Shown here in pieces: positions 9,037 through 34,087 of a stretch of 64,000 bases of DNA. Within the stretch, counting starts at the first letter, position 1; every line of letters starts with the position of its first letter. Made by a program: the position numbers and the translations under genes. The stretch is from Methanofollis sp. W23 (GTDB lineage Archaea > Halobacteriota > Methanomicrobia > Methanomicrobiales > Methanofollaceae). The stretch covers positions 2,066,140 to 2,130,139 of the forward strand of contig NZ_JAGGMN010000001.1 of assembly GCF_017875325.1 (NCBI RefSeq). The letters are read 5' to 3'. The notes below the pieces were generated by a model, which was not told the DNA's origin, ran no database searches, and worked only from the letters and a program-made list of their open reading frames with translations.

Positions 9037-9042
9037 GATATC

Positions 9043-9459: not shown

Positions 9460-9517
9460 ACACTTTATTTTTCTTCATCAAGTAAGGTGATCGGGAGATA
9501 ATTCCTCCACCAAACGC

Positions 9518-9820
9518 TGGTCGGCCGACTCAGACGACGACGGCCGCTCCGACTACGAAGAGCATTTCGATCCCGACTACGATCCCCTCGTCTACGAGGA
9601 GCGCTACGGCCCGATGGAGATGGGCCGCGAGTTCCTCCTCGGTGCGGTCTTCGGGGAGTGGGGCGCTGACGAGCACGACAACATCTACTACCTGGGCGGC
9701 TGGATCGCAAGTGGCGTTGTTGTCCTCGGTGACGTGCGGGACATCGCGGCGACGATCTCGCGGGGCGACCTCGTCGGCACCGGCCTCAACCTCGCTGCGG
9801 TGATCCCTGGCTACGGAGAC
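9518..9820 (+). repeat. pre-toxin repeat, copy 1
   Basis: 303 bases, nearly identical to 13530-13826 (scattered substitutions and one six-base indel after GGCGT). Homology starts at TGGTCGGCCGACTCAGACGA inside a Ca repeat and stops at the GGCTACGG-GAC codons, exactly before the cassette-specific tip. It is long enough to support homologous recombination. Confidence 0.85.
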
Positions 9821-10857: not shown

Positions 10858-11008
10858 ATCCAGAGAATAACAATTTTCATCCTTTTTTCGCACGTTATTA
10901 CGGTGTTCAGCTGAAAACTAAAATGCCGACGGCGACGGTCTTCTCGACGGGGTCGATCCCAATCCTACGGACCCTGAAGCAAAACCCGCAGATCCCTCCC
11001 TCGTCGAG

Positions 11009-11911
11009 ATGGGACGTGCGATCCTCCTTGGTGCGGTCTTCGGGGAGACCGGGCTTCCGGACGGATCTTTCCACTGTATGGTTGGCGACGAGATCGCCTC
11101 CTCCCCGTACTACATGGTCGGCTGGATCGGGTTCTCCTGTATCCCGGTAGCCGGCGGGATCGCCGATATCCGCGACGCCGTCCAGGCGATCATCAACGGC
11201 GATGCGGTCGGTGCGGCGATGAACGCCGCCGGGGCGCTCCCTGGGCCGGGTGACGGGGTGAAGGTCACCGGGGCGGTTGCGTGTTTCACCGGCAAGTATC
11301 CATGGAAGGCGAAGGAACTCGGCGTCCTCCTCTCGAAGGAGATTATGCCCCATCTCCCGGATTCGATTAAAATCGATGTCTGGAATGTGCTCTATGATGG
11401 GGCTGCAAGTCGGCTTATAAAGAAATATGATCTCAATGCCGATGATGTATCGAAACTGACCACGCGCGGCGTTGATCTCTCTGAAGTTACTGTTGCCGTA
11501 AAGGTGGGAGATGATGTGGTACCGGTTTTAGGTACTAATCTTGAACATGCGATCGGTCGCCATGTTGACGGTACAGAAAATGTTGGACGACCCGGGACTA
11601 CCATTTTCCCGACATCGGAGCCAGTGACATCATATGGTATCCCCTATCCGGGCAGTTCCTCCAAAACACCAGAACAAATTAAAGAAAAACTCATCCCGTG
11701 GATTGAAGATGCTTTGAAAGCTGATCTTACTGAGTGGCCAAAACAGAGGACGACTGTGAAAAGACATTTCAGTCAATCTGAAATAGATGAATATGGAATA
11801 TCGGAAGTTAAAGCAATAGTCTACGGAGATGTGGGTGTAGAAACAGTGTTCGCATCCAAGGGACCACAGGTCTTCAGATGGTATAAAGACTGTTGGAATC
11901 CAGCAGTGTAG
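11009..11911 (+). CDS. silent toxin cassette 2: pre-toxin plus H-x3-RH toxin domain
   Basis: The open frame begins at 10922, directly after a TAA, with the Ca-repeat peptide NADGDGLLDGVDPNP and no start codon; the first ATG is 11009. Pre-toxin features are GAVFGETG, GDEIASSPYYM, GWIGFS and ADIRD. The C-terminal domain carries H180-A-I-G-R184-H185 then GTTIFP, a spacing close to the H172/H177 pair of cassette 1, suggesting two diverged members of one RNase-like superfamily (inference). No secretion signal. It is followed by an immunity gene. Confidence 0.65.
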   Translation: MGRAILLGAVFGETGLPDGSFHCMVGDEIASSPYYMVGWIGFSCIPVAGGIADIRDAVQAIINGDAVGAAMNAAGALPGPGDGVKVTGAVACFTGKYPWKAKELGVLLSKEIMPHLPDSIKIDVWNVLYDGAASRLIKKYDLNADDVSKLTTRGVDLSEVTVAVKVGDDVVPVLGTNLEHAIGRHVDGTENVGRPGTTIFPTSEPVTSYGIPYPGSSSKTPEQIKEKLIPWIEDALKADLTEWPKQRTTVKRHFSQSEIDEYGISEVKAIVYGDVGVETVFASKGPQVFRWYKDCWNPAV

Positions 11912-11920
11912 GTGAGATTG

Positions 11921-12958
11921 ATGTTTAAGATCGTCTGGGATAAAGAAGAGGTAAAACAAGAAATAAGATCAAGAGAGGGAGGAAGAGAAAATTCTCTTGG
12001 TTTTTGGACGCCAGTTCAAGTTTTTGTAAACGGCTTAGATATAACCGGGCTTGAAGAAGTTCCAAAAGGGCATATTTCTCTTTTTGATGATATCTTCCTT
12101 AGTTTTTTTTATGTATTTTATTCTTTAGACCCAGATCACCTGCAAGAAAAAAAATTTCATATGATTTCCAACGTGAAAAACAATATTGATGGAGGAAGTT
12201 TTGATCTCTATGTATTCCTGAATAAAGAATCTGACATCGTATCTTTAAAATATCGTAATTTCGTACACCCTGAGTATCATATTGTGGAGATCCCTTTAAA
12301 GCAATTCGCAGAAGGAATACTTCAATCAGCAAGTGAAATGCTTGAGGAGGTATTACGCATCGCCCCTGAACTTGAGGACGATGAAAATTACGTCGTGTTA
12401 AAAGAAGACATGGACCTCATCCGAAACTGGTATCAAGAGCGGTATGAGAAGACTACAAACACTCTGAATACATCAATAGAGAGAAAACCACTCAGGGTAA
12501 AAGAAGGGCGTATCAGATGGATCGGTGTTGAGGGTGCTGACGACGAGGAGATGATCGAATGTGTGCAGAAGATCCTCGACATTACGTTTCCTGACGATTA
12601 TCTGAGTTATGTAAAAAAATATCCCCATGGTTTCCCCTATCCGTACAATATGATTGTAGACAAAGAGATCAGAGGGGGAAACAGTCAGTTTGTAAATTTT
12701 TTAAGTTTTAACCCGAAAGATTCTGTATCGTATATTTTAAATTCATATTATGCAATTAATCGGTCGTCAACAGGTTTTAATCGGATTGTTCCCTTTGCGC
12801 AGGCGCTTTATTATGATTTACTCTGTTTTGACTACAGAGAGAACTTTCCCCCACAAATTGTGTACCGGGAATATCATAAAAAAGGGGAAGAAAAGCCGCC
12901 TATAACTCTCTGCGAATCGTTCACAGAACTACTTGGCCTTATGAAAAGGTGTGAGTGA
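11921..12958 (+). CDS. two-domain immunity protein with C-terminal SUKH (SMI1/KNR4-like) domain
   Basis: ATG 11921 follows GGTGAG at good spacing; an upstream GTG at 11912 is possible. Residues 1 to about 180 form an unrecognised domain. The rest looks like a SUKH fold: a start IRWIGVEGADDEEMIECVQK, LDITFPDDYLSYVKKYP, a 'FL(S)FNP' strand, 'IVPFAQ...DLLCFDYR' and 'FTELL'. SUKH proteins are a known immunity superfamily of polymorphic toxins. AT-rich. The N-terminal domain may neutralise cassette 2, with the SUKH part a second specificity. Confidence 0.65.
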   Translation: MFKIVWDKEEVKQEIRSREGGRENSLGFWTPVQVFVNGLDITGLEEVPKGHISLFDDIFLSFFYVFYSLDPDHLQEKKFHMISNVKNNIDGGSFDLYVFLNKESDIVSLKYRNFVHPEYHIVEIPLKQFAEGILQSASEMLEEVLRIAPELEDDENYVVLKEDMDLIRNWYQERYEKTTNTLNTSIERKPLRVKEGRIRWIGVEGADDEEMIECVQKILDITFPDDYLSYVKKYPHGFPYPYNMIVDKEIRGGNSQFVNFLSFNPKDSVSYILNSYYAINRSSTGFNRIVPFAQALYYDLLCFDYRENFPPQIVYREYHKKGEEKPPITLCESFTELLGLMKRCE

Positions 12959-16112: not shown

Positions 16113-17483
16113 ATGATGAGCAGGGACGGGTGGATGGCGGCGACCGGCAAGGTGGTGAGCGTAGCGGGGGGTGCAGTCGACCTGCCGCGGGTGCGGGAAG
16201 GGACCAACACCTTTGTCATCCGCTCGCCAGACGGCGGGGCCCTCCAGTTCTCGATGCCCCTCCTCATCCCCGCCCCACTCCCCGCAGAGATCGATCGGCA
16301 CGGGGCGGACGGTGCGACCTGGGCCATCATCGAAGCGGTGAAGCGCAGGGTGCCTGACGAACCCCACCTCCGCCCTCTCGGGGGACTGGACACCCCGCGG
16401 CCGCGGCGGTACGCCGCGTGGACCGAACCGGTCACCATTCTTCATTCAGAATCGGCGATGGGCTCTGGGCTCTGGAAGGCAGACCATGAAAATGTCCTGG
16501 CAGAGGACGGGTTCCACTGCACGGTGAAGGGAGCGGTCCCGTACCCTGGAGGTCCTGAACCGCGGACCGTCAGGCACCTCGGCGAGGAGGTGGCCGCCCT
16601 GGCCGACGGGGTCCTGGCAACGGCCAGGCAGGTGCCAGGAAGCACACTCAAAGACGCCGCCCTCTGGTCCCTTGACCAGAAAGCCCTCAGGGCCCGCCTG
16701 CCCGCAATGGGGCTCGTCGCCTTTCTCGGCGACGGCACCATGCCGGCGCGGACTTACACGCCCTTCAGGCAGCACTACCGGATCGCCGGACCAAAAGACG
16801 GGGTGCATATCCCCTTCCAGTGCCCTGAAACCCTGGAGCCGGTGGAGGTCGAACTCCCGGCAAGTGGGCGGGTCGTCACCGGCCTTGGGATACGACGCAG
16901 AGAGGCGCTGGTCATCTCAGGCTCGAATGCCCAGGGGAAGACCACGCTCATCCAGGCGATCAGGGCCGGCGAGGACGATCATGCCCCTGGCGACGGGCGG
17001 GAACTTGCCGTCACCGTGAGGGGAGCAAGGACCGCGGAGGCAGGAGGACTCGACCTCCATGGCGCCGATGTAAGCCTCTTCTTCCACCGCCTCCCCCCCG
17101 GCATGACCGGGACCACGAAGGCCGCCTTCGGGCAGGGGAGCGGGTCGATGACGATGGCCATGCAGTTCGCGGCGGCGATACGGGAGGAGGCCCCGCTCAT
17201 CGTGGTGGACGAGGACAGGGCGGCGGCCAACCTCCTGGTCGCAAGTTGTCTTCAGGAGGAGGACGTCACCCCGCTTGCCAGGATCCTCGCGGGGGACCGG
17301 GAGGTGCTCGGCGATGCCACGCTCGTCATCGCCTCCTCCTCCCTCGACCCCCTCATCGCCCAGGCCGACCGGATCCTCGTGCTGCGGGGGCATCAGGCCG
17401 GGGCCGTCAGCAAGAGTGCGTTCAGGAGGGCGTACCTGGAGCATTTAGAGGGGTTGATGCGGCAGGTGGAAGGAGAGGGATAG
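16113..17483 (+). CDS. predicted ATPase of the ABC class
   Basis: 456 residues. Matches the ABC_ATPase (PF09818-like) family by layout: an N-terminal domain of about 240 residues, then SGSNAQGKTTL (Walker A), VSLFFHRLPPG, a signature-like GQGSGSMTM and APLIVVDEDRAAANLL (Walker B). Stand-alone and cytoplasmic; in vivo role not known. It diverges from serA with about 165 bases between them. Confidence 0.8.
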   Translation: MMSRDGWMAATGKVVSVAGGAVDLPRVREGTNTFVIRSPDGGALQFSMPLLIPAPLPAEIDRHGADGATWAIIEAVKRRVPDEPHLRPLGGLDTPRPRRYAAWTEPVTILHSESAMGSGLWKADHENVLAEDGFHCTVKGAVPYPGGPEPRTVRHLGEEVAALADGVLATARQVPGSTLKDAALWSLDQKALRARLPAMGLVAFLGDGTMPARTYTPFRQHYRIAGPKDGVHIPFQCPETLEPVEVELPASGRVVTGLGIRRREALVISGSNAQGKTTLIQAIRAGEDDHAPGDGRELAVTVRGARTAEAGGLDLHGADVSLFFHRLPPGMTGTTKAAFGQGSGSMTMAMQFAAAIREEAPLIVVDEDRAAANLLVASCLQEEDVTPLARILAGDREVLGDATLVIASSSLDPLIAQADRILVLRGHQAGAVSKSAFRRAYLEHLEGLMRQVEGEG

Positions 17484-17696
17484 CGGCGCGGGGCTGGCAT
17501 AGATGACATCTCACCGCAAAATCTAAATATATGGTTTCCATTGCGCATATCTCCTGATTCCATTTCCCCAGATACATTCTACTCAAGTTAATCGGAGATC
17601 AGGCCCCATTAGACGAAGAAAGTTAACTAAGTTAATTTACTTTACACTGTGAATCAGATAAAAACCTATATCGCCACACTAAAAAAACCTATTTTT

Positions 17697-17714
17697 AAAC
17701 CTAAAATCAGGTTT
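17697..17714. promoter_or_regulatory. inverted repeat, putative metalloregulator operator
   Basis: AAACCT-N6-AGGTTT, 36 bases before the ATG at 17750, in an AT-rich stretch with two further AACCTA half-sites (about 17663 and 17687) and GTTAA repeats (17590-17637). The shape resembles DtxR/IdeR-family operators. The RBS is GGAG at 17739-17742. Confidence 0.45.
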
Positions 17715-17749: not shown

Positions 17750-20032
17750 ATGGACCGAACACTAACAATCATTATCCTCATCGCTGCCGTCGTTGCTGCG
17801 GTAGTTGCAGGTGCAGCCATATTTGCACCTCCAGATCAGCAGCCAGACCAACCGCAGACTCCCAGTCAGGGGAGCGGAGATCCTCACCAGGGCAATACAA
17901 CCTCCCCTGAGTCGCACCCGACTCTCACCATCGTACCGACTGTCTCTCCGACAAACGAGACGCCGGTCACGACCCCTGTGCCGGTAAACACCACTACACC
18001 AGAAGTGACGGCCAATGTCACCGAAACCACCCCCGCACCGTCATCAGACTGGGGTGATTCCGGGAGTGACAGTTATACGCCACGGTACAGGACAGTCACC
18101 GACATGACCGGCGAAAAGGTCAGGATCCCCTATACCACCCATCGCGTCGTGACCCTCTACACTCCTGCGGCTGCGATGGTCATGGCAATCGATGGGGATG
18201 CCAGGCGCCTCGCAGGCGTCGATCGCTTTGCCTCCATCGACGAAGGCTTCCAGACCATCGACCCCTCCATCTCAGAGATCCCGGTCGTCAGCGGGACCGG
18301 CATCGAGGTGAACAAGGAAGCGATCCTCGCGGTCCACCCTGACGTGATCATCGCCGGTTCCTGGTCCAAGGAAGGACTCGAGGAGATCGGTGTCCCGGTC
18401 GTCTCCCTCACCACGAACGGTTTCGAAGATGTCCCAGGCGCCCTCACCGTCATCGGGGATGTCCTGAACAAGAAAGAACGCGCCGACGAGCTTGCCTCGT
18501 ACCTCGACGACCACCGCTCGGCCCTTGTCGAGATGACCGCCGAGATCCCGGAGGACGACCAGGACAACGCCTACATCACCTGGAGGTCGCCGCTCCACAC
18601 CTTCGCCGGCGGCGATTTCCACTCCCAGTGGGCCCATGACGCGGGCTGCCGCTTCGCCTCAGAAGAACTCACCGGCCATCGCCAGGAAGTGAACTTCGAG
18701 CAGATCGCCACCTGGAACCCGGACGTGATCATCCTCAGCAACAGCGGCGACCCCGAGGCCCTCCTCACCGACCCCACCTGGCAGGAGATCGAGGCCGTAA
18801 AGCACGGCAAGATCTACCGCATCCCGCGCTTTGTCGGCGACTGGGGCAGCCCGGTTCCCGAGTCGATCCTTGGTATGGAATGGCTTGCGAACGGCACCTA
18901 CCCTGAGATCGTCGACCTCGATATGGTCGCCGAGACCCAGCACTTCTACAGCCTCTTCTACGACTACGACCTCTCTGAGGAGGAGGCCCGTGAGATCATG
19001 GGTCCGAATCCTGCACCGCATGTCAGAACCGTCACCGTGACCGACGGTGCAGGGAGAGAAGTCAAACTCGAACTGCCGGTGGAGCGTATCGTAACCAATT
19101 ACCCGCCAGCAGTCAGGATGGTGACCACGCTCGGGGCCGCGGACCGGTTCGTGGGCGTCGACTCAGTCACCCAGTCACAGACCGACCAGTTTGTCTGTCT
19201 TCTTCACCCTGAGATCGCCGACCTCACCTGTGTCGGCAACCCGAGAAACCTGAACGTCGAGGCGGTCCTCGAATTGCAGCCCGACCTCGTGCTGGTCGCG
19301 GGATGGAACCGGGATAAACTTGAAGACCTCGAAGACAAGGGCCTGACCGTCTTTGGTGTCGTCGCTGAGAACCATGATCAGATGAAGAGCACGATGGACC
19401 AGCTCGGCAAGGCCCTTGAGTCTGAGGACGCAGCCGCTGATTTCACCGAGATCTATCAGAACACCCTTGACACCGCGACCTCCAGAGTCGAAGGTCTCCC
19501 AGAGAACCAGAAGCCCAAGGTCTTCCTTGGCGGATGTACAGGGATCTCCTCCACCGCAGGCGGCGAGATGTTCCAGAGCAGCCTCATCGAGGCCGCAGGC
19601 GGCAAAAATGTTGCATCAGAACTTGCAGGCTCCCACTGGGCCGATGTCAATACTGAGCAACTCCTCGCATGGAACCCTGACATCATCTTCCTCGTCCCAT
19701 ACCAGAGCACGTCCACGCCCGAGAATGTGATGGGCGACCCAGACCTCCAGACCATCACCGCAGTCAAGAACGGCCAGGTCTACTGGTTCCCCTCCAGAAT
19801 CTGCGAATGGGACTCCCCCTCCCCACAGACCGCCCTCGGCCTGGAGTGGACCGCAAAAACCCTCCACCCCGACCTCTTCGGTGACATCGACGTGACCGCA
19901 GATGCAGACGCCTTCTACGAAGAGTTCTATGGCACGTCTTTCACTGAACTTGGCGGGACGCTGCCGGCAACCAATTTCCCCGGCAATGCAGAAGCCGCAT
20001 CCGCTCAGACGCCGATGCAGGCCACGGTCTGA
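17750..20032 (+). CDS. double-domain periplasmic-type binding protein (FepB/BtuF-like)
   Basis: 760 residues: N-terminal membrane anchor/signal (about 5-27), a Pro/Thr/Asn-rich stalk (about 28-110), then two consecutive PeriBP_2-type domains. The first begins RYRTVTDMTGEKVRIPYTTH with VVSLTTNGFEDVP; the second begins VRTVTVTDGAGREVKLELPV with a parallel layout and an equivalent LLAWNPDIIF strand. This family delivers iron-siderophore, cobalamin or metal-ligand complexes to FecCD-type permeases, which occur five genes downstream. Two binding domains on one polypeptide is unusual and may raise local capture or bind two ligands. Confidence 0.85.
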   Translation: MDRTLTIIILIAAVVAAVVAGAAIFAPPDQQPDQPQTPSQGSGDPHQGNTTSPESHPTLTIVPTVSPTNETPVTTPVPVNTTTPEVTANVTETTPAPSSDWGDSGSDSYTPRYRTVTDMTGEKVRIPYTTHRVVTLYTPAAAMVMAIDGDARRLAGVDRFASIDEGFQTIDPSISEIPVVSGTGIEVNKEAILAVHPDVIIAGSWSKEGLEEIGVPVVSLTTNGFEDVPGALTVIGDVLNKKERADELASYLDDHRSALVEMTAEIPEDDQDNAYITWRSPLHTFAGGDFHSQWAHDAGCRFASEELTGHRQEVNFEQIATWNPDVIILSNSGDPEALLTDPTWQEIEAVKHGKIYRIPRFVGDWGSPVPESILGMEWLANGTYPEIVDLDMVAETQHFYSLFYDYDLSEEEAREIMGPNPAPHVRTVTVTDGAGREVKLELPVERIVTNYPPAVRMVTTLGAADRFVGVDSVTQSQTDQFVCLLHPEIADLTCVGNPRNLNVEAVLELQPDLVLVAGWNRDKLEDLEDKGLTVFGVVAENHDQMKSTMDQLGKALESEDAAADFTEIYQNTLDTATSRVEGLPENQKPKVFLGGCTGISSTAGGEMFQSSLIEAAGGKNVASELAGSHWADVNTEQLLAWNPDIIFLVPYQSTSTPENVMGDPDLQTITAVKNGQVYWFPSRICEWDSPSPQTALGLEWTAKTLHPDLFGDIDVTADADAFYEEFYGTSFTELGGTLPATNFPGNAEAASAQTPMQATV

Positions 20033-20113
20033 CTTCTCTGAACACGGGGGAGTGATCCCCCGCCCCCTTTTCACGCAGACTGCCGGCCCGAGTGGTCTGC
20101 AGGAGAAAAAAGA

Positions 20114-21118
20114 ATGAAATGTCATTATTGTGAACGGAGATGCGATCTCTCGGACGAGCAGATCGGCTTTTGCAGAATGTATTCCCTGAATGAAGGGACG
20201 ATCACGGAACGCTTTCCCCACCGCTGGTCGTCATATCAGGTGACGCACATCGAGTCCCTGCCATTCTTTCATGCCTATCCTGGTGCACGCACCCTCCAGG
20301 TGGGAACAGCAGGATGCAACCTCGCATGCAGTTACTGCTCCAATGCCTTTGTGGCGAGGACAGACCCGGCAACGGTTGAACTTTTTCATGTCTCTCCCGA
20401 ACGCCTGGTCCAGATCGCAGAAGAGACGGGATGCCATACGATCGTCTTCGGGGTCAACGAACCGACGGTTTCGATCCCCTCGCTCCTCGATCTCGCGGCA
20501 CAGGCACACACGCGGGGAATACCCATAGGTTGCCTCACAAACGGCTACATGACCGAAGAATCCGCCCATACGGTTGCAGAGCACCTTTCATTTGTGAATG
20601 TCAGTCTGAAGTCGCTGTCGTCGGCATTCTATCAGAAATATGCCGGCGTCAAGAGCGTGAACCCTGTGCTCAGGACCATCGGCATCCTTGCAGAACACTG
20701 CCATGTGGAGGTGACCACTCCTATTGTGCAGGGCGAAAACGATCACGAGATCAAAGAGATCGCCCGGTTCATCGCCGGGATCGATCCTTCCATCCCCTGG
20801 CATGTCTTCCGCCTCCTCCCCGAACACCGGATGGCCGGGGAAAAAGCACCTGACATCAGGCATATCGACGCCCTCCTCGAACCCGCACGGGAGATCCTCC
20901 CCTATGTGTACTTCAGCAACTTCGTCGGATCCAACCGCCTGAACACCGTCTGCCCTGCATGCGGCCGTACGGTCGTCGAACGGATCAACCCCGGCGGGTG
21001 CGGGGGAAAGATCGTCCGCTACCTGCTCGAGGACGGCAGATGCCCGTTTTGCGGAGAAACGATCCCCATCCATGGCAAGCGTGTCATGTGGGATTCCTTG
21101 GAGGTCGAAGACCAATGA
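20114..21118 (+). CDS. radical SAM protein, pyruvate-formate-lyase-activating-like
   Basis: 334 residues. N-terminal CHYCERRC and GFC cysteines, then the radical SAM cluster motif C-N-L-A-C-S-Y-C (CxxxCxxC) near residue 72, GVNEPT in the glycine-rich SAM region, and a C-terminal zinc-like set (CPACG near 280, CPFCG near 315). Related to AmmeMemoRadiSam/PflA-type proteins. Its stop overlaps the next ATG, heading a coupled operon with an iron-type ABC transporter. Substrate unknown; modification of a metal ligand or of the transported compound is an inference. Confidence 0.8.
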   Translation: MKCHYCERRCDLSDEQIGFCRMYSLNEGTITERFPHRWSSYQVTHIESLPFFHAYPGARTLQVGTAGCNLACSYCSNAFVARTDPATVELFHVSPERLVQIAEETGCHTIVFGVNEPTVSIPSLLDLAAQAHTRGIPIGCLTNGYMTEESAHTVAEHLSFVNVSLKSLSSAFYQKYAGVKSVNPVLRTIGILAEHCHVEVTTPIVQGENDHEIKEIARFIAGIDPSIPWHVFRLLPEHRMAGEKAPDIRHIDALLEPAREILPYVYFSNFVGSNRLNTVCPACGRTVVERINPGGCGGKIVRYLLEDGRCPFCGETIPIHGKRVMWDSLEVEDQ

Positions 21119-22275
21119 TCGGAGTCATCGACGTCACCGACTGGCAGACGACGGTCGACCTCAGAACCGGCAGGGGCACCGTTGCGGACGGCCCTCTGGT
21201 CAGGATTGCACAGAGGGTGCAGGCCGATCATCACTACCCCGGCGATCGAAAACCGGAGAGCGTCTCATGGGTCACCGATACGGCACTGGACCTCTGCCGC
21301 CGCTCAACGCCCGGCCTGATGGTGCTCAGTTACGCATACCCCTATCTCACCCGCCTCTTTACCGCACCCTCACGGAGCGAATGGCATGAGATCGTCGAAA
21401 AGACGTTGAGTGCGGTCGATCGCTTCACAGAAGCCTCCGGAATGACTCCGGTGATCGTCGGCACCGGCGCCATGGTGCCTGTACAGGGCAGAATCGATCT
21501 GAGCGGGCTAGAATGTCTCACGGCCACCGGCGGGGCGGCGCCGCGCTATGCAGGGCTCTACCACCCTTCGGAACATGACCTTGAGTATCTCGCCGATCAT
21601 CCGGGCGTACGGGGCCTGTTCAAACGTGAGGATGTTTTCAAGGCTGATCATTTCTGTGCCGCTGCACAACGCCGTTTTCCCGACTATCTCGTTGCCGCCA
21701 GATCCGGACATCTCTTCAGAGGGTTTGGGGGTGTCCCGCGGCCGGTGGCCCATTTGCCTGCATGCAACGAGTCGGTCCCGCTGGTCTCCGGCATCGGACA
21801 GGCCGGGGAGATCACCGGCATCAGGGGGATGATCGCAGAACACCTTGCAGAAGGGGAACGGATCGCTCTCATCATCGTCGAGGGCATCGGGTCCGCCGAT
21901 CTGGACCGTCCCGCGTATGCCTGCAGGAACACCTGGCGCTGGCACTCCTACTCCCCGGGTGAAGGGCAATATGCTGCTATCCTGACCGGAAAACATCTGC
22001 CCGAACAGGCGTATCCCCCCGGATTTCGCTATTACCCTGAGGACGGCGAGGAGAGGGAGTACCCATTCGCCGGCCCATATGGCACGATGCCCACAGACAC
22101 CCTCGGCATGGCATATGAAGGGAGGAGTGCGGCGGTCGGGAGCAGGAGCACCATGACCCATGTCTATGCTGGCACCGACATCGCCATAGAGTGTTTTGCC
22201 AGGAATCTCTACAACTATGGGACGATGGCGGCGGTCCGCAGCAGCAAGAATGAACTCTGGGGCAGGATCCAATGA
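21115..22275 (+). CDS. unrecognised protein in radical-SAM/ABC operon
   Basis: 386 residues, ATG overlapping the radical SAM stop (ATGA). No signal peptide or membrane segment. Conserved-looking blocks: QADHHYPGDRKPESVSWVTD, IVGTGAMVPV, GIGQAGEITGIRGMIAEHL, ALIIVEGIG, YACRNTWRWHSYSPGEGQY and HVYAGTDIAIECFARNLYN. A faint likeness to alkaline-phosphatase/phosphomutase-superfamily strands (ALIIVEGIG) is not enough to assign function. Strict coupling to a radical SAM enzyme, a methyltransferase and a FecCD transporter suggests one pathway. Confidence 0.7.
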   Translation: MIGVIDVTDWQTTVDLRTGRGTVADGPLVRIAQRVQADHHYPGDRKPESVSWVTDTALDLCRRSTPGLMVLSYAYPYLTRLFTAPSRSEWHEIVEKTLSAVDRFTEASGMTPVIVGTGAMVPVQGRIDLSGLECLTATGGAAPRYAGLYHPSEHDLEYLADHPGVRGLFKREDVFKADHFCAAAQRRFPDYLVAARSGHLFRGFGGVPRPVAHLPACNESVPLVSGIGQAGEITGIRGMIAEHLAEGERIALIIVEGIGSADLDRPAYACRNTWRWHSYSPGEGQYAAILTGKHLPEQAYPPGFRYYPEDGEEREYPFAGPYGTMPTDTLGMAYEGRSAAVGSRSTMTHVYAGTDIAIECFARNLYNYGTMAAVRSSKNELWGRIQ

Positions 22276-22928
22276 AAAAAGGAGATCAGAAAGGAGTTTT
22301 TACCGACAAAAAATCGGCGGAACAGTTCAACCGCCTTGCCTGCACCGTCTTCGCCCCGGTCAACACCGCCGTCGCCCACCAGATCGTACAGGAGTGTGGA
22401 GTCAATCGTGGCACGGCCGTCGATATTGGGGGCGGACCAGGCCACCTTGCTATCGAACTGGCGCGGATCACCGACCTGACGATCATTTCTCTCGACATCT
22501 CGGCATGCATACGTCAGGTGGCCGCCGAAAATATCAGGGCCGCCGGGCTTTCCGACCGGATCACGGCTGTCACCGGCGACGCCGCACAGATGCCTCTTCC
22601 CGACGCATCAGTTGACCTCGCCGTCAGCAAGGGATCCGTCTTCTTCTGGCCTGAACCGGCGGCCGCATTCAGGGAGATCAGACGGGTGCTCAGGCCCGGC
22701 GGAGTGGCATGGATCGGTGGAGGATTTGGGAGTTCCGTCATCCTCCAGGGGGTTGGAGAGCAGATGGACCGGTTCGATCCGACGTGGATCGACGGGGTGC
22801 GGGAGCGCCTCGGGGACCGGACGGCAGAACGGTTCAGAGAGGAACTGAAAAAAGCTGGCATTGAGGAATATACCCTCCTCCATGACCCCTGGCAACTCTG
22901 GATCCGTTTCCAGGGAGGAAAAGGATGA
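22272..22928 (+). CDS. class I SAM-dependent methyltransferase
   Basis: 218 residues of the UbiE-like Methyltransf_11 type: AVDIGGGPGHLAIELA (motif I), SLDISA, GDAAQMPLPDASVDLAVSKG and REIRRVLRPGGVAWIGGG. Overlaps both neighbours by four bases. The substrate is probably a small molecule handled by the operon (inference). Confidence 0.85.
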   Translation: MKKGDQKGVFTDKKSAEQFNRLACTVFAPVNTAVAHQIVQECGVNRGTAVDIGGGPGHLAIELARITDLTIISLDISACIRQVAAENIRAAGLSDRITAVTGDAAQMPLPDASVDLAVSKGSVFFWPEPAAAFREIRRVLRPGGVAWIGGGFGSSVILQGVGEQMDRFDPTWIDGVRERLGDRTAERFREELKKAGIEEYTLLHDPWQLWIRFQGGKG

Positions 22929-23971
22929 ATGCGATCCGATCGGCCCGGAACTGGACGACCATCGGTTTTCTTGCCGGCCTCCCGCTTGTTTTGTTTCTGG
23001 TCTCATTTTTTCTCGGACGATATGCTATCGATCCCATCACCGCCGTTCAGATCATCGTAGCGGCGATCATCGATGCCATACCTGGCTTCCCGCTCTCGAT
23101 CCCCCACACCTGGCCGGCGGTGATGGACACCGTCGTCCTCAAGATCAGGCTCCCTCGCATCTGCGCTGCAATGCTCGTGGGTGCCGGGCTTGCCATATCG
23201 GGTGCAGCCTTCCAGGGGCTCTTCAGAAATCCGCTGGTCTCCCCTCACATCCTCGGTGTTGCCTCAGGTGCAGGGTTTGGTGCGGCGCTGGGCATCCTGA
23301 TCTCAGGATCCATGTTCGTGGTCCAGAGCCTTGCCTTCACCTTCGGGATCATCGCCGTCGTGGTAACCTATCTGCTGGCGAGGGTCTATCGTACCACCCC
23401 CACTCTCGTCCTCGTCCTCGCCGGGATCATCGTGAGCGCCTTCTTCCAGGCGATGATCTCGCTCACGAAATATGTCGCCGACCCCTATGAAAAACTCCCT
23501 GCCATTGTCTTCTGGATGATGGGAAGTCTCGCAGACGTCAGGGTTGGCGACCTGTATATCATCGCCCCACTGATCATCGTATGTATCGTTATTCTTCTCT
23601 TGATCAGATGGCGGATCAACATTCTCTCGGTAGGAGACGAGGAAGCAAAGGCGCTCGGCATCAATACCACCAGAATGGCCCAGATCATCATCGTCTGCGC
23701 CACCGTCATCACCTCAATGGCCGTCTGCATCAGCGGGATCATCGGATGGGTAGGACTCGTCGTCCCCCATATCGCCCGGATGATCGTCGGCCCTGACTAC
23801 AAGAAGATCCTTCCAGTCTCGGTGGTGATCGGGGCGTGCTATCTTCTCGTCGTCGACGACATTGCCCGCACCCTCACCGCCGCCGAGATCCCGCTCGGCA
23901 TCCTCACTGCCGTGATCGGGGCCCCGGTCTTTGCGTACCTGTTGAAGTTCAGGAAGGTGGGATGGGAATGA
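22925..23971 (+). CDS. FecCD-family ABC transporter permease
   Basis: 348 residues, about nine to ten membrane helices, with LKIRLPRICAAMLVGAGLAI near the N-terminus, GVASGAGFGAALGI, and the ATPase-contact region GWVGLVVPHIARMIVGPDYK. The family imports iron-siderophore, heme or cobalamin complexes. Coupled to the methyltransferase (ATGA overlap) and to the ATPase gene. Confidence 0.92.
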   Translation: MNAIRSARNWTTIGFLAGLPLVLFLVSFFLGRYAIDPITAVQIIVAAIIDAIPGFPLSIPHTWPAVMDTVVLKIRLPRICAAMLVGAGLAISGAAFQGLFRNPLVSPHILGVASGAGFGAALGILISGSMFVVQSLAFTFGIIAVVVTYLLARVYRTTPTLVLVLAGIIVSAFFQAMISLTKYVADPYEKLPAIVFWMMGSLADVRVGDLYIIAPLIIVCIVILLLIRWRINILSVGDEEAKALGINTTRMAQIIIVCATVITSMAVCISGIIGWVGLVVPHIARMIVGPDYKKILPVSVVIGACYLLVVDDIARTLTAAEIPLGILTAVIGAPVFAYLLKFRKVGWE

Positions 23972-24753
23972 TCCTGACAGTCAGAGATGCCTCGTTCTCA
24001 TATGACGGGACAAGGACGATCTTTGAGGGGGTTTCTTTCTCCGTCGACCGGGGGGAATGCCTCTGCATCCTCGGCCCAAACGGCACCGGCAAGTCCACCC
24101 TGATCAAGTGTCTCATCAATGTCTTACCGCTGGATGTCGGCACCATCACACTCAATGACACGGAGATCACCTCGCTTTCCAGAACCGAGGTGGCCCAACA
24201 GATCGCCTATGTGCCGCAGGCCCATCAGATCGTCTTCCCCTTCGATGTCATCGACTTTGTGCTGATGGGACGGGCACCTCACCTCTCCCTCTTTGCCTCT
24301 CCAGGACGTGCAGACCAGCACATTGCAGAGGACGCACTGGTCACCGTGGGGATTGACCACCTTGCCCATCGCCCGGTCTCAGAGATCAGCGGCGGCGAAT
24401 TGCAACTTGCCCTCATTGCACGAGCACTGGCACAGCAGCCTGCGGTGATGGTCCTCGACGAACCAACCTCACATCTCGATTTCGGAAATCAGGTGCGGGT
24501 TCTCCGCCTCATCGAGCGGCTTGCAGAGGAAGGGATCGCCGTGGTAATGACCTCGCACTTCCCTGACCACAGTTTCATCATTCCACAGAATGTGGCGATC
24601 ATGAAGGACGGCGGGTTCATCGCTGTCGGTCCGGCTAAAGAGGTTCTGACTCCAGGACACCTCAGCAAGGCCTATGGCATCGATGTGGCGATCTCCTATG
24701 TCGAAGAAGCCGGACGAATGGCCTGTATCCCCTCAGTCTGCCGGACTCCATGA
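23962..24753 (+). CDS. FecE/BtuD-type ABC transporter ATPase
   Basis: 263 residues. Walker A GPNGTGKSTLIK, Q-loop AYVPQAH, signature ISGGELQLALIARAL, Walker B VMVLDEPTSHLDFG, switch His TSHFPDH. ATG 23962 after GGTGGG overlaps the permease stop by ten bases; ATG 23968 is the alternative. Completes the importer with the upstream permease and, probably, the double binding protein at 17750. Confidence 0.92.
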   Translation: MGMILTVRDASFSYDGTRTIFEGVSFSVDRGECLCILGPNGTGKSTLIKCLINVLPLDVGTITLNDTEITSLSRTEVAQQIAYVPQAHQIVFPFDVIDFVLMGRAPHLSLFASPGRADQHIAEDALVTVGIDHLAHRPVSEISGGELQLALIARALAQQPAVMVLDEPTSHLDFGNQVRVLRLIERLAEEGIAVVMTSHFPDHSFIIPQNVAIMKDGGFIAVGPAKEVLTPGHLSKAYGIDVAISYVEEAGRMACIPSVCRTP

Positions 24754-25038: not shown

Positions 25039-25851
25039 TTACCCCCTGATCACCGTCCCGACCCTTTCTCCCTTCACCGCCTTCGTGATATTGCCCGGCA
25101 CATGCCCGTTGACCACCTTGATCTCCTTCACGTGCTTGGTGTGGAGGAGGAGTTCGACTGCCCTGCGCTCCAGCACCAGGTCTTCGAGGTCCATGGCAAG
25201 GAGGGCCTTGGCCGAGATCTCAGGGATCAACTCGGCGCCGGGGTTGATCCTCGGGTCCTCGGAAAACTGGCCATCAACGTTCTTTGCAAGAATACAGTTC
25301 TTCGCCCCCATCACCTCGGCGATGAGCACCGCACCCGTGTCAGTCCGGTTTGGCGGGATCGATCCCACCTCGGCCGGTTGCTCGTAGAGCCCGTACGGTG
25401 GGGTGCCATGGGTCACCGGCAGGAGCCCGAGGGCGATGATCGTCGGAAGCTGGAGGAGGTCGGCGGTGTGGACCCGCACCCCCCCATAGGAAGAGAGGAG
25501 GACAGTCATCATGATCGCGTTCTGTTCGCTGATCTTGCCGGCAAGTTCGGCAAGCACGCCGGTCGGCATCCCGAGGTTGATGCCGATGTCCATGATATGG
25601 CGCACCCGTCCCCCGCCGCCGGTCACTACCAGCACCTTCTCCCCGCCCGTCTTGAGCGCCCCGATCTCCTCCACGATCGGGAAGACCACTTCCCTGCCAT
25701 AATCGATCGTCCCATGTCCGCCAAACTTGATCACATTCAGGTCTGGCATGATCCTGATCTGCGGGACCTCCCCGGTCCGCTGCATCAGTCCCTTTCTCAC
25801 CAGGGTCTCGCCCCGTAGCCCTGACTCCAGTTCATATCGGCCTGATTTCAT
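25039..25851 (-). CDS. molybdenum storage protein subunit (amino-acid-kinase fold), copy 1
   Basis: 270 residues of the MosA/MosB (UMP-kinase-like) family: IKFGGHGTIDYGREVVFPIV, LVVTGGGGRVRHI, GINLGMPTGVLAELAGKISEQNA, GTPPYGLYEQP, PPNRTDTGAVLIAEVMGAKN and a C-terminal VVNGHVPGNITKAV. Known family role: ATP-dependent storage of molybdate as polyoxomolybdate clusters in a cage. ATG 25851 follows AGGTGA at four bases. Pairs with a 270-residue paralogue at 26185, presumably the alpha/beta hetero-oligomer. Confidence 0.88.
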   Translation of the reverse strand: MKSGRYELESGLRGETLVRKGLMQRTGEVPQIRIMPDLNVIKFGGHGTIDYGREVVFPIVEEIGALKTGGEKVLVVTGGGGRVRHIMDIGINLGMPTGVLAELAGKISEQNAIMMTVLLSSYGGVRVHTADLLQLPTIIALGLLPVTHGTPPYGLYEQPAEVGSIPPNRTDTGAVLIAEVMGAKNCILAKNVDGQFSEDPRINPGAELIPEISAKALLAMDLEDLVLERRAVELLLHTKHVKEIKVVNGHVPGNITKAVKGERVGTVIRG

Positions 25852-26184: not shown

Positions 26185-26997
26185 TCAGGCCCTGATCAGG
26201 GTCCCGATCTTCTCACCCTTTACTGCCTTCGTGATATTGCCTGGCACATGCCCGTTGACCACCCTGATCTCTTTCACGTGCTTGGTGTGGAGGAGAAGTT
26301 CGACGGCGTTCTTCTCAAGGACCATGTCCTCCATGTCCTTTGCAAGCAGGTCGTCTGCCGTGATCTCAGAGATGAGGTCTGCCTCAGGGTCGAGGCGCGG
26401 GTCGTCGGTGAAGAGCCCCTCGACATTCTTTGCAAGGATACAGTTCTTCGCCCCCATCACCTCGGCGATGAGCACCGCACCCGTGTCGGTCCGGTTCGGC
26501 GGGATCGACCCCATCTCAGGAGGTTGTTCATAGAGCCCATACGGCGGGGTGCCATGAGTCACCGGCAGAAGCCCCAATGAGGTGAGTGTGGGAAGTTCGA
26601 GGAGGTCGTCTGACGAGACCTGCGTCCCGCCGTACGGGGAGAGGAGGAGGGACATCATCAGGGCATTCTGCTCGCTGATCTTGCCGGCAAGTTCGGCGAG
26701 CACGCCGGTCGGCATCCCGAGATTGATCCCGAGGTCCATGATATGCCGCACACGGACGCCGCCGCCGGTCACCAGGAGCACCTTCTCCCCGGCTTCCTTG
26801 AGGTCCCCGATCTCCTCCACGATCGGGTAGACCACCTCACGCCCGAAGTCGATGGTGCCGTGCCCGCCGATCTTGATCACATTCAGGTCTGGCATGATCC
26901 TGATCTGCGGGATCTCTTCGATCTGCCGCATCAGTCCCTTCCTCACCATCGTCTCTCCACGGAGCCCTGAATTCAGTTCAAACCGTTTTGCCGTAAT
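26185..26997 (-). CDS. molybdenum storage protein subunit, copy 2 (apparent ATT start)
   Basis: Paralogue of the 25039 gene, same blocks (IKIGGHGTIDFGREVVYPIV, MGINLGMPTGVLAELAG-like, GTPPYGLYEQP, NRTDTGAVLIAEVMGAKN, VVNGHVPGNITKAV). An ATG-only start at 26949 would drop 16 residues that the paralogue has. Homology continues upstream (xTAKRFELNSGLRGET versus MKSGRYELESGLRGET) to an ATT at 26997, which sits exactly where the paralogue has ATG and has the same AGGTGA-N4 site. With ATT both proteins are 270 residues. The 3' end lies 13 bases from the converging small gene. Confidence 0.85.
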   Translation of the reverse strand: MTAKRFELNSGLRGETMVRKGLMRQIEEIPQIRIMPDLNVIKIGGHGTIDFGREVVYPIVEEIGDLKEAGEKVLLVTGGGVRVRHIMDLGINLGMPTGVLAELAGKISEQNALMMSLLLSPYGGTQVSSDDLLELPTLTSLGLLPVTHGTPPYGLYEQPPEMGSIPPNRTDTGAVLIAEVMGAKNCILAKNVEGLFTDDPRLDPEADLISEITADDLLAKDMEDMVLEKNAVELLLHTKHVKEIRVVNGHVPGNITKAVKGEKIGTLIRA

Positions 26998-27925: not shown

Positions 27926-29059
27926 CTATTGGTGAGGAGTGCTACCGACCTTTTTCTTCCTTGCCTCCAGCACGTACGCGAGGGCCAGGCCCACCACAAA
28001 CCCGAGGGTGATGTTCACCAGGAGAGCGAGGGCGGCGATGACCCCGGTGACGAGGTATGAATCGGTCTTGAGACTGTGTTTACCGAGTTCGATCGCCGCA
28101 AAGATAAGCAGGCCGCCAAAAACCCCAAGCGGGATGAGGGCAAGGCTCTCTGGCGAGGCGAAGAAGAGGGCGAAGCCGAGGAAGATCACCCCTGCGATCA
28201 CGTTCGCCCCGCCGGTCCGCGCTCCGAACCGGTGCTGGGCGGCAAGCCCGCCGGCACCATGGCACATCGGGAACCCGCCGAAGGGCACCGAGACCAGGTT
28301 CATCACTCCAATGGTCCTGGAAAGGCGGTCCGGCTCGACCTCGGTCTTGAAGAGGTCGTGGGTGAGAAGGGCGGTGGCCAGGATCGCGTTCGTGAGAGTG
28401 AGCGGGAACTGCGGAGGGACAAGATAGACCGCCGCATACGTGAGGTCGGCAAGGTCGGGGAGGACGAGGGCGGGGAGGGCGATCATCGAGACCTGGGGGA
28501 GGCCGGCGGTGAGTACCCCCGCGACGATCCCGATGCCGAGGACGACGAGCGCTGAGATATCCTTGATCGTCCCGCGCAGCGCCGCAAGGAAGAAGAGCAC
28601 CACCACAGCAATGGAAATCCCGGCAAAGAGAGGGTCGGAAACGACGAAACCAAGAGAGGTCTTGATCAGCATCAGGGCAAGTCCAGCCTGCACCCCCCTG
28701 ATGACCGGGACCGGGATCCTATCCCTGAGCCAGGTCATGCTCCCGCAGCACCCAAGAGCAAGGAATATCACCCCGATGATCATCCCGGCCCCGGCGATCT
28801 CACCTGCGGTCAGTCCTTCTGCGATGGCGATCGCCCCGACCGCCTTGAGGGGCTCGATGGGTATAGGAAGACGATAATAGACCCCTGATAGAACGTACCA
28901 GAGGGCAAAGAAGAGAAAGATATGCGCGAGGTTTACATCGCAGACCAGGGCGACGCCAAGGACGATCGGGAGGATGGTCCCGAAGTCCCCCACCGACCCG
29001 GCGGCCTCGCCGATGGTGAACTTAAGCGGCCGTCTCCTGTATGATTCTTCTGCCTGCAC
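27926..29059 (-). CDS. MOT1-family molybdate/sulfate transporter
   Basis: 377 residues, about ten to twelve membrane helices. N-terminal EAAGSVGDFGTILPIVLGVA and IPIEPLKAVGAIAIAEGL, and the mid-protein VPFGGFPMCHGAGGLAAQHRFGARTGGANV, are signatures of the SulP-related MOT1 molybdate permeases. Diverges from modA with a shared 120-base regulatory gap, supporting molybdate as substrate. Confidence 0.85.
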   Translation of the reverse strand: MQAEESYRRRPLKFTIGEAAGSVGDFGTILPIVLGVALVCDVNLAHIFLFFALWYVLSGVYYRLPIPIEPLKAVGAIAIAEGLTAGEIAGAGMIIGVIFLALGCCGSMTWLRDRIPVPVIRGVQAGLALMLIKTSLGFVVSDPLFAGISIAVVVLFFLAALRGTIKDISALVVLGIGIVAGVLTAGLPQVSMIALPALVLPDLADLTYAAVYLVPPQFPLTLTNAILATALLTHDLFKTEVEPDRLSRTIGVMNLVSVPFGGFPMCHGAGGLAAQHRFGARTGGANVIAGVIFLGFALFFASPESLALIPLGVFGGLLIFAAIELGKHSLKTDSYLVTGVIAALALLVNITLGFVVGLALAYVLEARKKKVGSTPHQ

Positions 29060-29148: not shown

Positions 29149-29172
29149 CATTTATTTACATTGTTAATTAAC
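29149..29172 (+). promoter_or_regulatory. modA promoter with overlapping palindrome
   Basis: TATA-like CATTTATTTAC (29148-29158) lies about 27 bases before the ATG at 29182, so the mRNA would be nearly leaderless. The palindrome GTTAATTAAC (29163-29172) sits between TATA box and start, the classic position for a repressor operator. Confidence 0.5.
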
Positions 29173-29181
29173 GCATGCTAC

Positions 29182-29988
29182 ATGAAATCATTCTCGATCA
29201 TTCTGGCTTTGATGCTTGTGATCGGTGCTTCCTGCGTCGTCTGCGGGTGCACCACAGATCAGAGTCCAACAACACCAGAAATATCAGAAAAAACCGCGTT
29301 GATGACCTATTGCGGCGCCGGTATCCGCGAACCGATGGAAGAGATCGCCAACCTCTATGAGAACAAGACCGGCACCATGATCGAGTTCTCCTTCGGCAAC
29401 TCCGCCGCCCTCCTGAGCCAGATGGAACTGGTGCAACAGGGTGACCTCTATATGCCGGGCGCCACCGCCTATATCGAGAAAGCCGCCGAGAAGGGATATG
29501 TGAACACCACCGAGCAGGTTGTCTACCATATCCCGGTGATCGCCGTCGCCAAGGGCAACCCCAAGAACGTGACCTGCATTGAGGACCTGGCGCACGATGA
29601 CCTGACTGTCGTGGTCGGCGACCCCACCGGCCCGGCGATCGGGAAGAGCACCAAGAAGATGCTGAACAAGAGCGGGCTCTGGGACGCGGTCTCTGAGAAC
29701 GCCGTTGCCACGCGGGCGACCGTCAACGAACTGGTCGTCGACATCTGCATGGGCACCGCCGACGCCTCGGTCATCTGGTACGACCTCTATGTCCCTGACA
29801 AGATGGACCTCGTCGAGATCCCGAAGGACCAGAACGACATCAAGGTGATCCCCATCGGCACGCTCAAGTTCTCTGAGAACCCGGCCGAGGCCCAGGAGTT
29901 TGCCGACTTCGTCGCTTCAGACGAAGGGAAGGCAGTCTTCGTGAAGCACGGCTATATCGTCTACCCTGACCCGGAGTATGAAGACTGA
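29182..29988 (+). CDS. modA: molybdate ABC transporter substrate-binding lipoprotein
   Basis: 268 residues. Signal peptide ending in a lipobox-like VVCGC, short Thr-rich linker, then the ModA fold: YCGAGIREPMEEIANLYENK, SFGNSAALLSQMELVQQGDL, GDPTGPAIGKSTKKML, GTADASVIWYDLY. ATG 29182 chosen because it gives a proper signal peptide and matches the promoter spacing; an upstream TTG at 29161 is less likely. First gene of modA-trmO-modB-modC. Confidence 0.9.
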   Translation: MKSFSIILALMLVIGASCVVCGCTTDQSPTTPEISEKTALMTYCGAGIREPMEEIANLYENKTGTMIEFSFGNSAALLSQMELVQQGDLYMPGATAYIEKAAEKGYVNTTEQVVYHIPVIAVAKGNPKNVTCIEDLAHDDLTVVVGDPTGPAIGKSTKKMLNKSGLWDAVSENAVATRATVNELVVDICMGTADASVIWYDLYVPDKMDLVEIPKDQNDIKVIPIGTLKFSENPAEAQEFADFVASDEGKAVFVKHGYIVYPDPEYED

Positions 29989-30038
29989 GGCCCTTGGGTC
30001 TCATTCCCTTTTTTATAATTTCCGACGAGGACACATCC

Positions 30039-30575
30039 ATGCATTCTGAACCAACAGACCAGACAAGAGATCCGGTCACCTACCGGCCCATCGGCGTCAT
30101 CAGGACGCCCTTTACCGAACAGAAAAACACTCCCATCCAGGGAGTCTTCAACAAGGCGTGCGGCACCGTCGAGTTGTTCCCCGAATATGAGAGCGGATTG
30201 CTGGATATCGAGACGTTCTCGCACCTCTTCCTCATCTACCACTTCCACCAGGCGAACGCCCAGATGCTCCGCCAGAAACCGTTCCTCGACCTTCAGAAGG
30301 AACGCGGCATCTTTGCCATCCGTCACTTCAACCGCCCCAACCCGATCGGGATCTCGATCGTGGAACTGAAGGGCGTGCGCGGCAATGTCCTCGATGTCTG
30401 CGGCGTGGACACCCTCGACGGCACGCCACTGCTCGACATCAAGCCCTATGTCCACCAGTTCGACCACCGCGAGGAGGTCAGGAGCGGATGGGTGGACGAC
30501 CAGCATGTGGACGATGTCAGGGAGTGGAACAGCACCCCTGAGGCACTCAGGCATCGCGACCGGGTGAACCTGTGA
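30039..30575 (+). CDS. TrmO/TsaA-like methyltransferase-family protein
   Basis: 178 residues of the TsaA/YaeB (UPF0066) family: RPIGVIRTPFTEQKNTPIQG, FSHLFLIYHFHQA, RPNPIGISIVEL, DTLDGTPLLDIKPYVHQFD. In E. coli TrmO methylates t6A37 of tRNA; archaeal members next to metal transporters may act otherwise. Its stop overlaps the modB start, so it is an integral part of the mod operon. ATG 30039 follows CGAGGACAC. Confidence 0.85.
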   Translation: MHSEPTDQTRDPVTYRPIGVIRTPFTEQKNTPIQGVFNKACGTVELFPEYESGLLDIETFSHLFLIYHFHQANAQMLRQKPFLDLQKERGIFAIRHFNRPNPIGISIVELKGVRGNVLDVCGVDTLDGTPLLDIKPYVHQFDHREEVRSGWVDDQHVDDVREWNSTPEALRHRDRVNL

Positions 30576-31360
30576 GAAGGCCAAGTCCCCTGAAAGCGGT
30601 GACAGTAGGGGTTGCCGCCTCTCTTACCGCATTTATTATTCTTCTGCTCCTCCTTGTCGTCACCCACCCTTCTCCTACCGCGCTCCTCTCCTCCATCACC
30701 TCACGCGAGATCCAGTTTGCCGTCTATCTCTCGATCGTCACTTCGGTGGCCTCGACGGCGATCTGCATCCTGATCGCCGTGCCCTCGGCCTATGCCCTTG
30801 CACGATATGATTTCTTCGGCAAGAACGCCGTGAACACGGTCGTCGACATGCCACTCGCCCTCCCGCCGCTCGTCGCAGGTGTGGCCCTCCTCCTCTTCTT
30901 TGGGTCCACGCCGATCGGGCAGGCACTTGCCGAGGCAGGACTGGTCTTTATCTTCACGCCCCTCGGGATCGTGGTGGCCCAGGTCTTTGTGAACTTCCCG
31001 TTCATGCTCAGGATCATGCGCTCGACCTTCGAGTCGATCAGTCCGCGTTACGAATATGTGGCAAAGACCCTCGGGTGCACCGATATCCAGGCCCTCTGGC
31101 GGGTCACGCTGCCGATGGCGACGAGCGGACTCATCGCCGGCGGGGTGATCACCTGGGCAAAGGGGATCGGCGAGTTCGGGGCCGCGCTCATGCTTGCCGG
31201 TGCGACGCGGATGAAGACCGAGACCCTGCCGATCTCGCTCTTCCTGAACATGTCCTGCGGGGAACTCGAACTGGCCATCTCAGCGGCGACGATCCTGATC
31301 ATCATCTCGATCGCCTCACTCTATGTCTTTGAACGCTATGGCGGGAGCGTCAGATTGTAG
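30572..31360 (+). CDS. modB: molybdate ABC transporter permease
   Basis: 262 residues, about six membrane helices, N-terminal segment MRRPSPLKAVTVGVAASLTA, and the ATPase-contact motif in FVNFPFMLRIMRSTFESI with TLGCTDIQALWRVTLPMA and KGIGEFGAALMLAG. Four-base overlap with the upstream gene. Confidence 0.92.
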   Translation: MRRPSPLKAVTVGVAASLTAFIILLLLLVVTHPSPTALLSSITSREIQFAVYLSIVTSVASTAICILIAVPSAYALARYDFFGKNAVNTVVDMPLALPPLVAGVALLLFFGSTPIGQALAEAGLVFIFTPLGIVVAQVFVNFPFMLRIMRSTFESISPRYEYVAKTLGCTDIQALWRVTLPMATSGLIAGGVITWAKGIGEFGAALMLAGATRMKTETLPISLFLNMSCGELELAISAATILIIISIASLYVFERYGGSVRL

Positions 31361-31371
31361 GAAATCGACCT

Positions 31372-33979: not shown

Positions 33980-34087
33980 CTTTGTCCTCCCTTGAGTGTA
34001 GTCTTCTCTCCGTCTCCATCCCCGCCTCCAGGAATAAAACCCCCGTATGCCGCCTGAGGGAGTATGGCCCCACGCAGGATAGAGGAA

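Follow-up and report, generated by a model that had tools for sequence, protein, structure and literature searches.

An importer operon of Methanofollis sp. W23 with a radical SAM enzyme and an orphan protein: a candidate system for processing imported molybdenum or tungsten ligands

What do a radical S-adenosylmethionine (SAM) enzyme and a 386-residue orphan protein do in an operon that otherwise resembles the gene set of an ATP-binding cassette (ABC) importer? The operon lies in a 64,000-nucleotide stretch of Methanofollis sp. W23 (GCF_017875325.1, contig NZ_JAGGMN010000001.1, positions 2,066,140 to 2,130,139 of the forward strand), which is called the window throughout. The answer that we prefer, with confidence a little short of even, is that the operon specifies an importer of type II (FecBCD-like) for molybdenum (Mo) or tungsten (W) species, together with a dedicated cytosolic pair, the radical SAM enzyme and the orphan, that acts on the incoming ligand. 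Anaerobic archaea and bacteria rely on Mo and W enzymes such as formylmethanofuran dehydrogenase and the formate dehydrogenases, and little is known of the chemical form in which they take up Mo and W in sulfidic habitats poor in metals. If our reading is correct, a conserved importer with radical SAM chemistry of its own would mean that Mo or W is used in a complexed or organic form, and the operon names concrete genes for that process.

Six plus-strand genes span positions 17750 to 24753 of the window and are ordered as follows:

17750 to 20032, plus strand: substrate-binding protein of 760 residues with two Peripla_BP_2 stretches (Pfam PF01497, E 1.6e-63)
20114 to 21118, plus strand: radical SAM enzyme, AmmeMemoRadiSam-like (PF04055, E 3.4e-22; TIGR04337, 172 bits)
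21115 to 22275, plus strand: orphan protein of 386 residues, no family match, modelled with AlphaFold2
22272 to 22928, plus strand: class I SAM methyltransferase (PF08241, E 1.3e-20)
22925 to 23971, plus strand: FecCD-type permease (PF01032, E 2.5e-87)
23968 to 24753, plus strand, with an alternative ATG start at 23962: importer ABC ATPase (PF00005, E 1.1e-30)

The importer set is complete, with Peripla_BP_2, FecCD and ATPase domains all above the Pfam cut-off, and the genome encodes six full-length FecCD proteins, the permease included. The binding protein begins with a membrane segment and a Thr/Pro-rich linker, which are followed by two FecB-type domains whose halves are 30% identical to each other. 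An initial annotation of this DNA had described a double-domain binding protein upstream of genes that overlap by 4 to 10 bases, and both observations hold. All four joints from the radical SAM gene to the ATPase gene are ATGA overlaps of 4 bases, in frame from ATG to TGA, and the earlier ATPase start would widen the last of them to 10 bases. A gap of 81 bases separates the binding-protein gene from the radical SAM gene, and the gene further upstream (16113-17483) encodes a PF09818 P-loop protein that falls outside the conserved set.

The gene arrangement recurs in other genomes and is therefore not due to chance. The distribution of the orphan was surveyed in two groups, the class of the window genome and the phylum of Lutispora. 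In the class, 5 of 232 genomes carry it, namely the window's own, three congeners (in two of them the orphan is 90% and 42% identical to the window's, and in the third it is broken) and Methanospirillum stamsii, which belongs to another family of the same order. When contigs were scanned, a single-sequence pattern for the orphan gave nothing and an alignment-based pattern reached a Lutispora metagenome-assembled genome (28% identity); relatives were then counted in 14 of the 398 genomes of that phylum, the Bacillota. The orphan gene lies directly 3' of the radical SAM gene in nearly all loci found, with locus L059, in which it is divergent from the rest, as an exception. FecCD occurs near the pair in every locus with a long enough contig except L054, which has the pair without FecBCD. 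The methyltransferase appears to be a dispensable accessory because it is absent from genomes G085 and G208, which keep the radical SAM enzyme, orphan, FecCD and ATPase. The neighbourhood on which the initial annotation had staked its proposal thus recurs across the archaeal order and Bacillota, and, as far as sequence can show it, the pair and the importer are conserved together in both archaea and bacteria. A second orphan copy (L056:354-1517), about 40% identical to the window protein, has no radical SAM gene of its own.

A sister system connects the radical SAM enzyme more directly with what is imported. Two control loci of the neighbourhood comparison described below, L089 from a bacterium and L102 from M. 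stamsii, encode FecBCD, several binding proteins, DUF364, a methyltransferase and a radical SAM enzyme, and no orphan. Their methyltransferases are 38-41% and their radical SAM enzymes 33-35% identical to those of the window. The sister radical SAM enzymes continue into a region that matches the C-terminal lobe of a FecB-type binding-protein profile (E 7.5e-25 and 8e-20; 0 in 300 shuffled controls). The fusions are located as follows:

L105:8090-9868 (M. stamsii): radical SAM enzyme fused to a binding-protein C-lobe, inside a DUF364/FecBCD/methyltransferase locus
L089:2888-4666: radical SAM enzyme fused to a binding-protein C-lobe, inside a locus of the same kind

This unusual fusion of a radical SAM enzyme to half a ligand-binding protein ties the enzyme to the imported ligand; no other observation argues as strongly that enzymes of this kind act on that ligand or are steered by it. 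The M. stamsii sister system (L102) adjoins genes read from their open reading frames (ORFs) as formylmethanofuran dehydrogenase, among which a molybdopterin oxidoreductase and an amidohydrolase subunit are confirmed by Pfam. Neither the window genome nor G085 has a match to PF04016, the DUF364 family.

Taken together, the conserved importer, its pair of enzyme-like proteins of the cytosol and, in the sister system, the radical SAM enzyme that is fused to a binding lobe point to the processing of an imported ligand, and we consider it slightly more probable than not that the radical SAM/orphan pair acts on such a ligand. We infer that processing follows import and not that synthesis precedes export. 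The FecBCD-like importer would take up a species containing Mo or W, probably complexed rather than as the bare oxyanion, and hand it to the pair in the cytosol, which would cleave or modify the ligand or cofactor that arrives with the metal. The freed metal may then pass to a storage protein and to cofactor assembly, with the methyltransferase as an optional third enzyme.

The opposite direction, in which the enzymes build a chelator of Mo or W (or iron) that is released and then re-imported by FecBCD, is in our judgment improbable. A radical SAM enzyme and a methyltransferase could serve as tailoring enzymes, and it is textbook knowledge that FecBCD importers generally carry chelates. However, among the six operon proteins Pfam and NCBIfam identified neither an exporter nor a chelator-backbone synthase, whether a nonribosomal peptide synthetase (NRPS), an NRPS-independent siderophore synthetase, an opine-type enzyme or one of another kind, although a backbone may be made elsewhere in the genome. 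Inspection of the related loci found none either, apart from a MATE-like ORF in L054, and with the methyltransferase missing from G085 and G208 there are just two universal enzyme-like genes. The initial annotation had proposed that a metal-binding ligand is made or modified and re-imported; processing of an imported ligand survives from that proposal, and the cluster has no chelator-backbone or export genes for the remainder. The alternative offered with it, salvage of a cofactor or ligand, comes close to the reading that we prefer.

The window radical SAM enzyme resembles the AmmeMemoRadiSam model TIGR04337 over its full length, at 172 bits and thus under the curated cut-off of 220, and it also scores with glycyl-radical activases in NCBIfam. 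Twelve cysteines are invariant over 16 relatives, four of them N-terminal, three in the CX3CX2C motif and five C-terminal. Its scores with the activases, its tight pairing with the orphan and the conserved G369 and C360 in the C-terminal part of the orphan could mean that it activates or modifies the orphan itself, as an activase with its substrate or scaffold, in sensing or in another role loosely tied to transport. We regard this as very improbable, since no glycyl-radical motif was identified and, in the sister system, the radical SAM enzyme does without an orphan but carries a fused ligand-binding lobe.

The initial annotation called this protein an orphan, and it does not belong to a known unrelated enzyme family: no Pfam family fits any of 20 orphan members, NCBIfam gave no credible match, and a profile search of the PDB with the orphan alignment returned chance matches only. 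The AlphaFold2 model built from 20 sequences has a predicted local distance difference test score (pLDDT) of 92.5 and a predicted template modelling score of 0.93; a model from four sequences had a pLDDT of 40. Foldseek matched the model to phosphonoacetate hydrolase (1ei6, E 1.4e-5), and VIA-align placed residues 1-245 on residues 136-407 of 1ei6 (Z 10.4, 3.7 A over 220 residues). The top structural matches are members of the alkaline-phosphatase superfamily only, with 1ei6 followed by nucleotide pyrophosphatases. As an independent hint, the orphan profile resembles the phosphoglycerate mutase iPGM of the same superfamily in hhalign (E 1e-5, probability 82%), in an alignment that ends at residue 105. 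Weak matches of the orphan profile in haloarchaea proved to be phosphoglycerate mutases where checked and were rejected as orthologues, and their identity supports the superfamily assignment.

The first ~135 residues of 1ei6, which carry the nucleophile in its family, have no counterpart in the orphan, and the alignment begins past the nucleophile segment. Orphan positions 77 and 81, aligned to the D and H ligands of iPGM, and positions 117 and 118, aligned by eye to its ADHG, are variable or occupied by non-ligand residues across the 20 relatives. A phosphatase or phosphodiesterase role was rejected because the nucleophile segment and the metal ligands are missing. On this evidence the orphan reuses the fold without its chemistry, and residues 1-245 of the model represent half of an alkaline-phosphatase-superfamily fold that lacks the catalytic residues. 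Among polar residues, D44, D155, E256, N272, Y286, R344, S345, T348, H349, E359 and C360 are conserved best; many of them fall in the C-terminal third, where G369 is conserved as well, and this part of the protein may hold a new active site. The search with the full-length model gave no fold match for residues 246-386, a weak negative because this part was not searched alone.

Which metal might be imported? Downstream of the operon the window holds the following genes:

25039 to 25851, minus strand: molybdenum storage protein beta-like subunit (2ogx_B, E 1.3e-58)
26185 to 26949, minus strand: second molybdenum-storage-like subunit (PF00696 and paralogy with 25039-25851)
27926 to 29059, minus strand: MOT1-type molybdate transporter (PF16983, E 1.1e-54)
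29161 to 32418, plus strand: oxyanion importer of the ModABC/WtpABC type, interrupted by a TrmO_N gene (PF13531, E 2.6e-55; PF01980, E 6e-38; permease and ATPase ORFs)

Genes of this kind accompany the pair elsewhere. In L054 the pair is flanked by MOT1 on one side and a ModA-like protein on the other, and in L063 ModABC lies immediately 5', on the same strand, of a run of FecCD, ATPase, substrate-binding protein, radical SAM and orphan genes. Neighbours include a molybdenum cofactor (Moco) oxidoreductase, XdhC, TrmO_N and DUF364 in L064, XdhC with DUF364/DUF4213 in L059, DUF364 in L057, MobB and several PF00174 proteins in the Lutispora locus and a PF00174-like surface protein in L055. Over 18 orphan-bearing genomes, DUF364, PF00174 and MOT1 occur near the orphan about 10 times more often than under uniform placement (Poisson 0.0025, 0.0006 and 0.005, respectively). 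A control used tblastn queries of the leave-one-genome-out kind (E<1e-15) and compared lineages with long flanks with other FecCD loci, mostly of the same genomes: a Mo/W gene was near 8 of 12 orphan lineages and near 11 of 40 control loci (Fisher p 0.018). DUF364 had been linked to the transport of Mo, W and vanadium through genome context (PMC2954201). Because molybdenum storage proteins, MOT1, ModABC, XdhC, MobB and DUF364 are the recurrent neighbours, the metal is likely to be Mo or W rather than iron, and the label of an iron-type importer in the initial annotation probably names the wrong metal.

Ordinary uptake of iron complexes, heme or a corrinoid, in which the pair would free the metal or remodel the corrinoid and the Mo/W neighbours would be a coincidence, is an unlikely alternative, although some evidence is in its favour. 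Among NCBIfam models, the permease and ATPase score highest with those for the B12 permease BtuC and corrinoid ATPases, all under cut-off, and some Mo/W company is general to FecCD loci. Against it, the pair in L054 sits between two molybdate-type transport genes without FecBCD, and L063 is contiguous with ModABC. A different proposal is that the importer brings in an organic cofactor, such as Moco, tungstopterin or a related pterin, which the pair dismantles or remodels. The MobB, XdhC and PF00174 neighbours do relate to cofactor rather than to free metal, the orphan fold is nearest to phosphonoacetate hydrolase and nucleotide pyrophosphatases, and flavin or pterin derivatives have been suggested as substrates of DUF364 (PMC2954201). 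Yet the orphan is without the nucleophile segment and metal ligands required for splitting a pyrophosphate, our literature search turned up no bacterial Moco importer, and the PF00174 matches are weak and recur in two or three lineages only; such pterin salvage therefore seems to us decidedly unlikely.

Several observations weigh against the reading that the importer serves Mo or W with the pair as its dedicated partner. Of the solved structures, HI1471/MolB (2nq2, 256 bits) is closest to the window permease, and HI_1472/MolA (3psa) ranks third among the solved relatives of the binding protein (E 1.4e-25). Of three unrelated FecCD paralogues in the window genome, two also have MolB as their best match (239 and 232 bits), and for this reason we dropped the argument from MolB. 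The link to Mo/W genes is above background, yet its enrichment over other FecCD loci is modest: counting all control matches at E<1e-6 gives 17 of 40, which is not significant (p 0.13), and FecCD loci of these anaerobes partly share the Mo/W company. Among the full-length lineages, G208, L056, L058 and L061/L062 have no leave-one-out Mo match, although Pfam detected a PF00174 protein in L062. The Mo/W gene families were partly picked after the loci had been seen, and the Mo synteny within the genus counts as one lineage only. Genome G087 has a decaying operon (L017:8282-14604) in which the orphan has an internal deletion and a conserved cysteine is missing from the radical SAM enzyme, while FecCD and the ATPase are intact, with transporter genes 86% identical, and the binding protein has been replaced by a different double-domain one downstream. 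Persistence of the transporter beside a damaged orphan and radical SAM enzyme indicates that the pair is separable from transport and not needed for transport itself.

The region upstream of the operon contains an AT-rich palindrome, TTAACTAAGTTAA, at 17623-17635 that is preserved as GTTAA-N4-GTTAA and belongs to the following feature:

17622 to 17639, plus strand: candidate operator GTTAACTAAGTTAATTTA (GTTAA-N4-GTTAA), from an upstream alignment of four genomes of the genus

In three congeners the motif likewise precedes the operon. Within the window the exact copy of GTTAACTAAGTTAATTTA is confined to the operon site, and elsewhere among the 104 loci examined GTTAA-N4-GTTAA was not found, bar one chance match. 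In G087 it precedes the radical SAM gene, the binding-protein gene having been lost at that place. In our view the motif is a likely regulator site for this operon. The DtxR-like operator of the initial annotation was rejected: a second candidate, AAACCT-N6-AGGTTT at 17697-17714, is mismatched even in the nearest relative and is not conserved, and GTTAA-N4-GTTAA, the only conserved upstream element, does not resemble a DtxR site.

A broader proposition, which is possible though doubtful, is that these loci represent an undescribed route of Mo/W uptake in strict anaerobes, in which a complex is imported by FecBCD and opened or stripped in the cytosol by the radical SAM enzyme and a new enzyme family built on an alkaline-phosphatase fold that has lost its catalytic residues. 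The parallel version would have DUF364 in place of the orphan and a radical SAM enzyme with its own ligand-binding lobe. Our literature search found nothing on the radical SAM/orphan pair and no paper that joins radical SAM, molybdenum, metallophore and methanogen.

Other features were noted in and around these loci. Two genomes of Lutispora's order encode proteins of about 1500 residues beside the cluster (L019:9475-13995 and L022:2015-6541), and the one in L019 has S-layer homology domains and a weak match to PF00174 (molybdopterin-binding-like). A single run in genome G925 (L069:1811-17500) contains XdhC, FmdE, DUF364, two FecBCD sets, a methyltransferase of the window family, NifH, two nitrogenase-component-1-like genes and ModABC, and thus places a nitrogenase-like enzyme within a Mo uptake neighbourhood. 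Within the window, positions 33982-37030 and 39034-39963 hold another ABC importer, probably of the tungstate type, whose binding protein is PBP_like_2, and a radical SAM protein that looks NifB-like by motif and matches Radical_SAM in Pfam. At 4486-12958, a 1516-residue surface-type protein with a nuclease-like C-terminus is followed by two shorter genes that share its pre-toxin-like region and by a gene whose product resembles SMI1/KNR4 immunity proteins; judged by eye, the stretch may be an archaeal polymorphic-toxin locus.

Among known systems, MolBC-A of Haemophilus influenzae (HI1470-1472) is a low-affinity molybdate transporter (PMC4031551). It shares with the window system a type II FecCD permease and, likely, molybdate or tungstate as the metal, and its components are among the best solved relatives of the window permease and of one binding-protein domain, a similarity that is common to other FecCD paralogues. 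We know of no radical SAM or orphan partner described for MolBC-A. The fold of orphan residues 1-245 is shared with the phosphonoacetate hydrolase and nucleotide pyrophosphatase branch, from which the orphan differs in having neither the nucleophile segment nor the metal ligands and in its other C-terminal part. The window radical SAM enzyme is like that of the AmmeMemoRadiSam system (TIGR04337) in the cysteine-rich regions that flank its core and differs in its partner, which is the orphan; Pfam and NCBIfam scans found no Memo or AMMECR1 family among the cluster proteins, with no genome-wide search made. The 'heavy-metal chelation' loci with DUF364/DUF4213 (PMC2954201) have the FecBCD importer and the Mo/W context in common with the window system, and those represented by L089 and L102 encode a related radical SAM enzyme and a methyltransferase of the same family. 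They differ in that the conserved partner in the window system is the orphan and not DUF364, and in that the window radical SAM enzyme carries no fused binding lobe.

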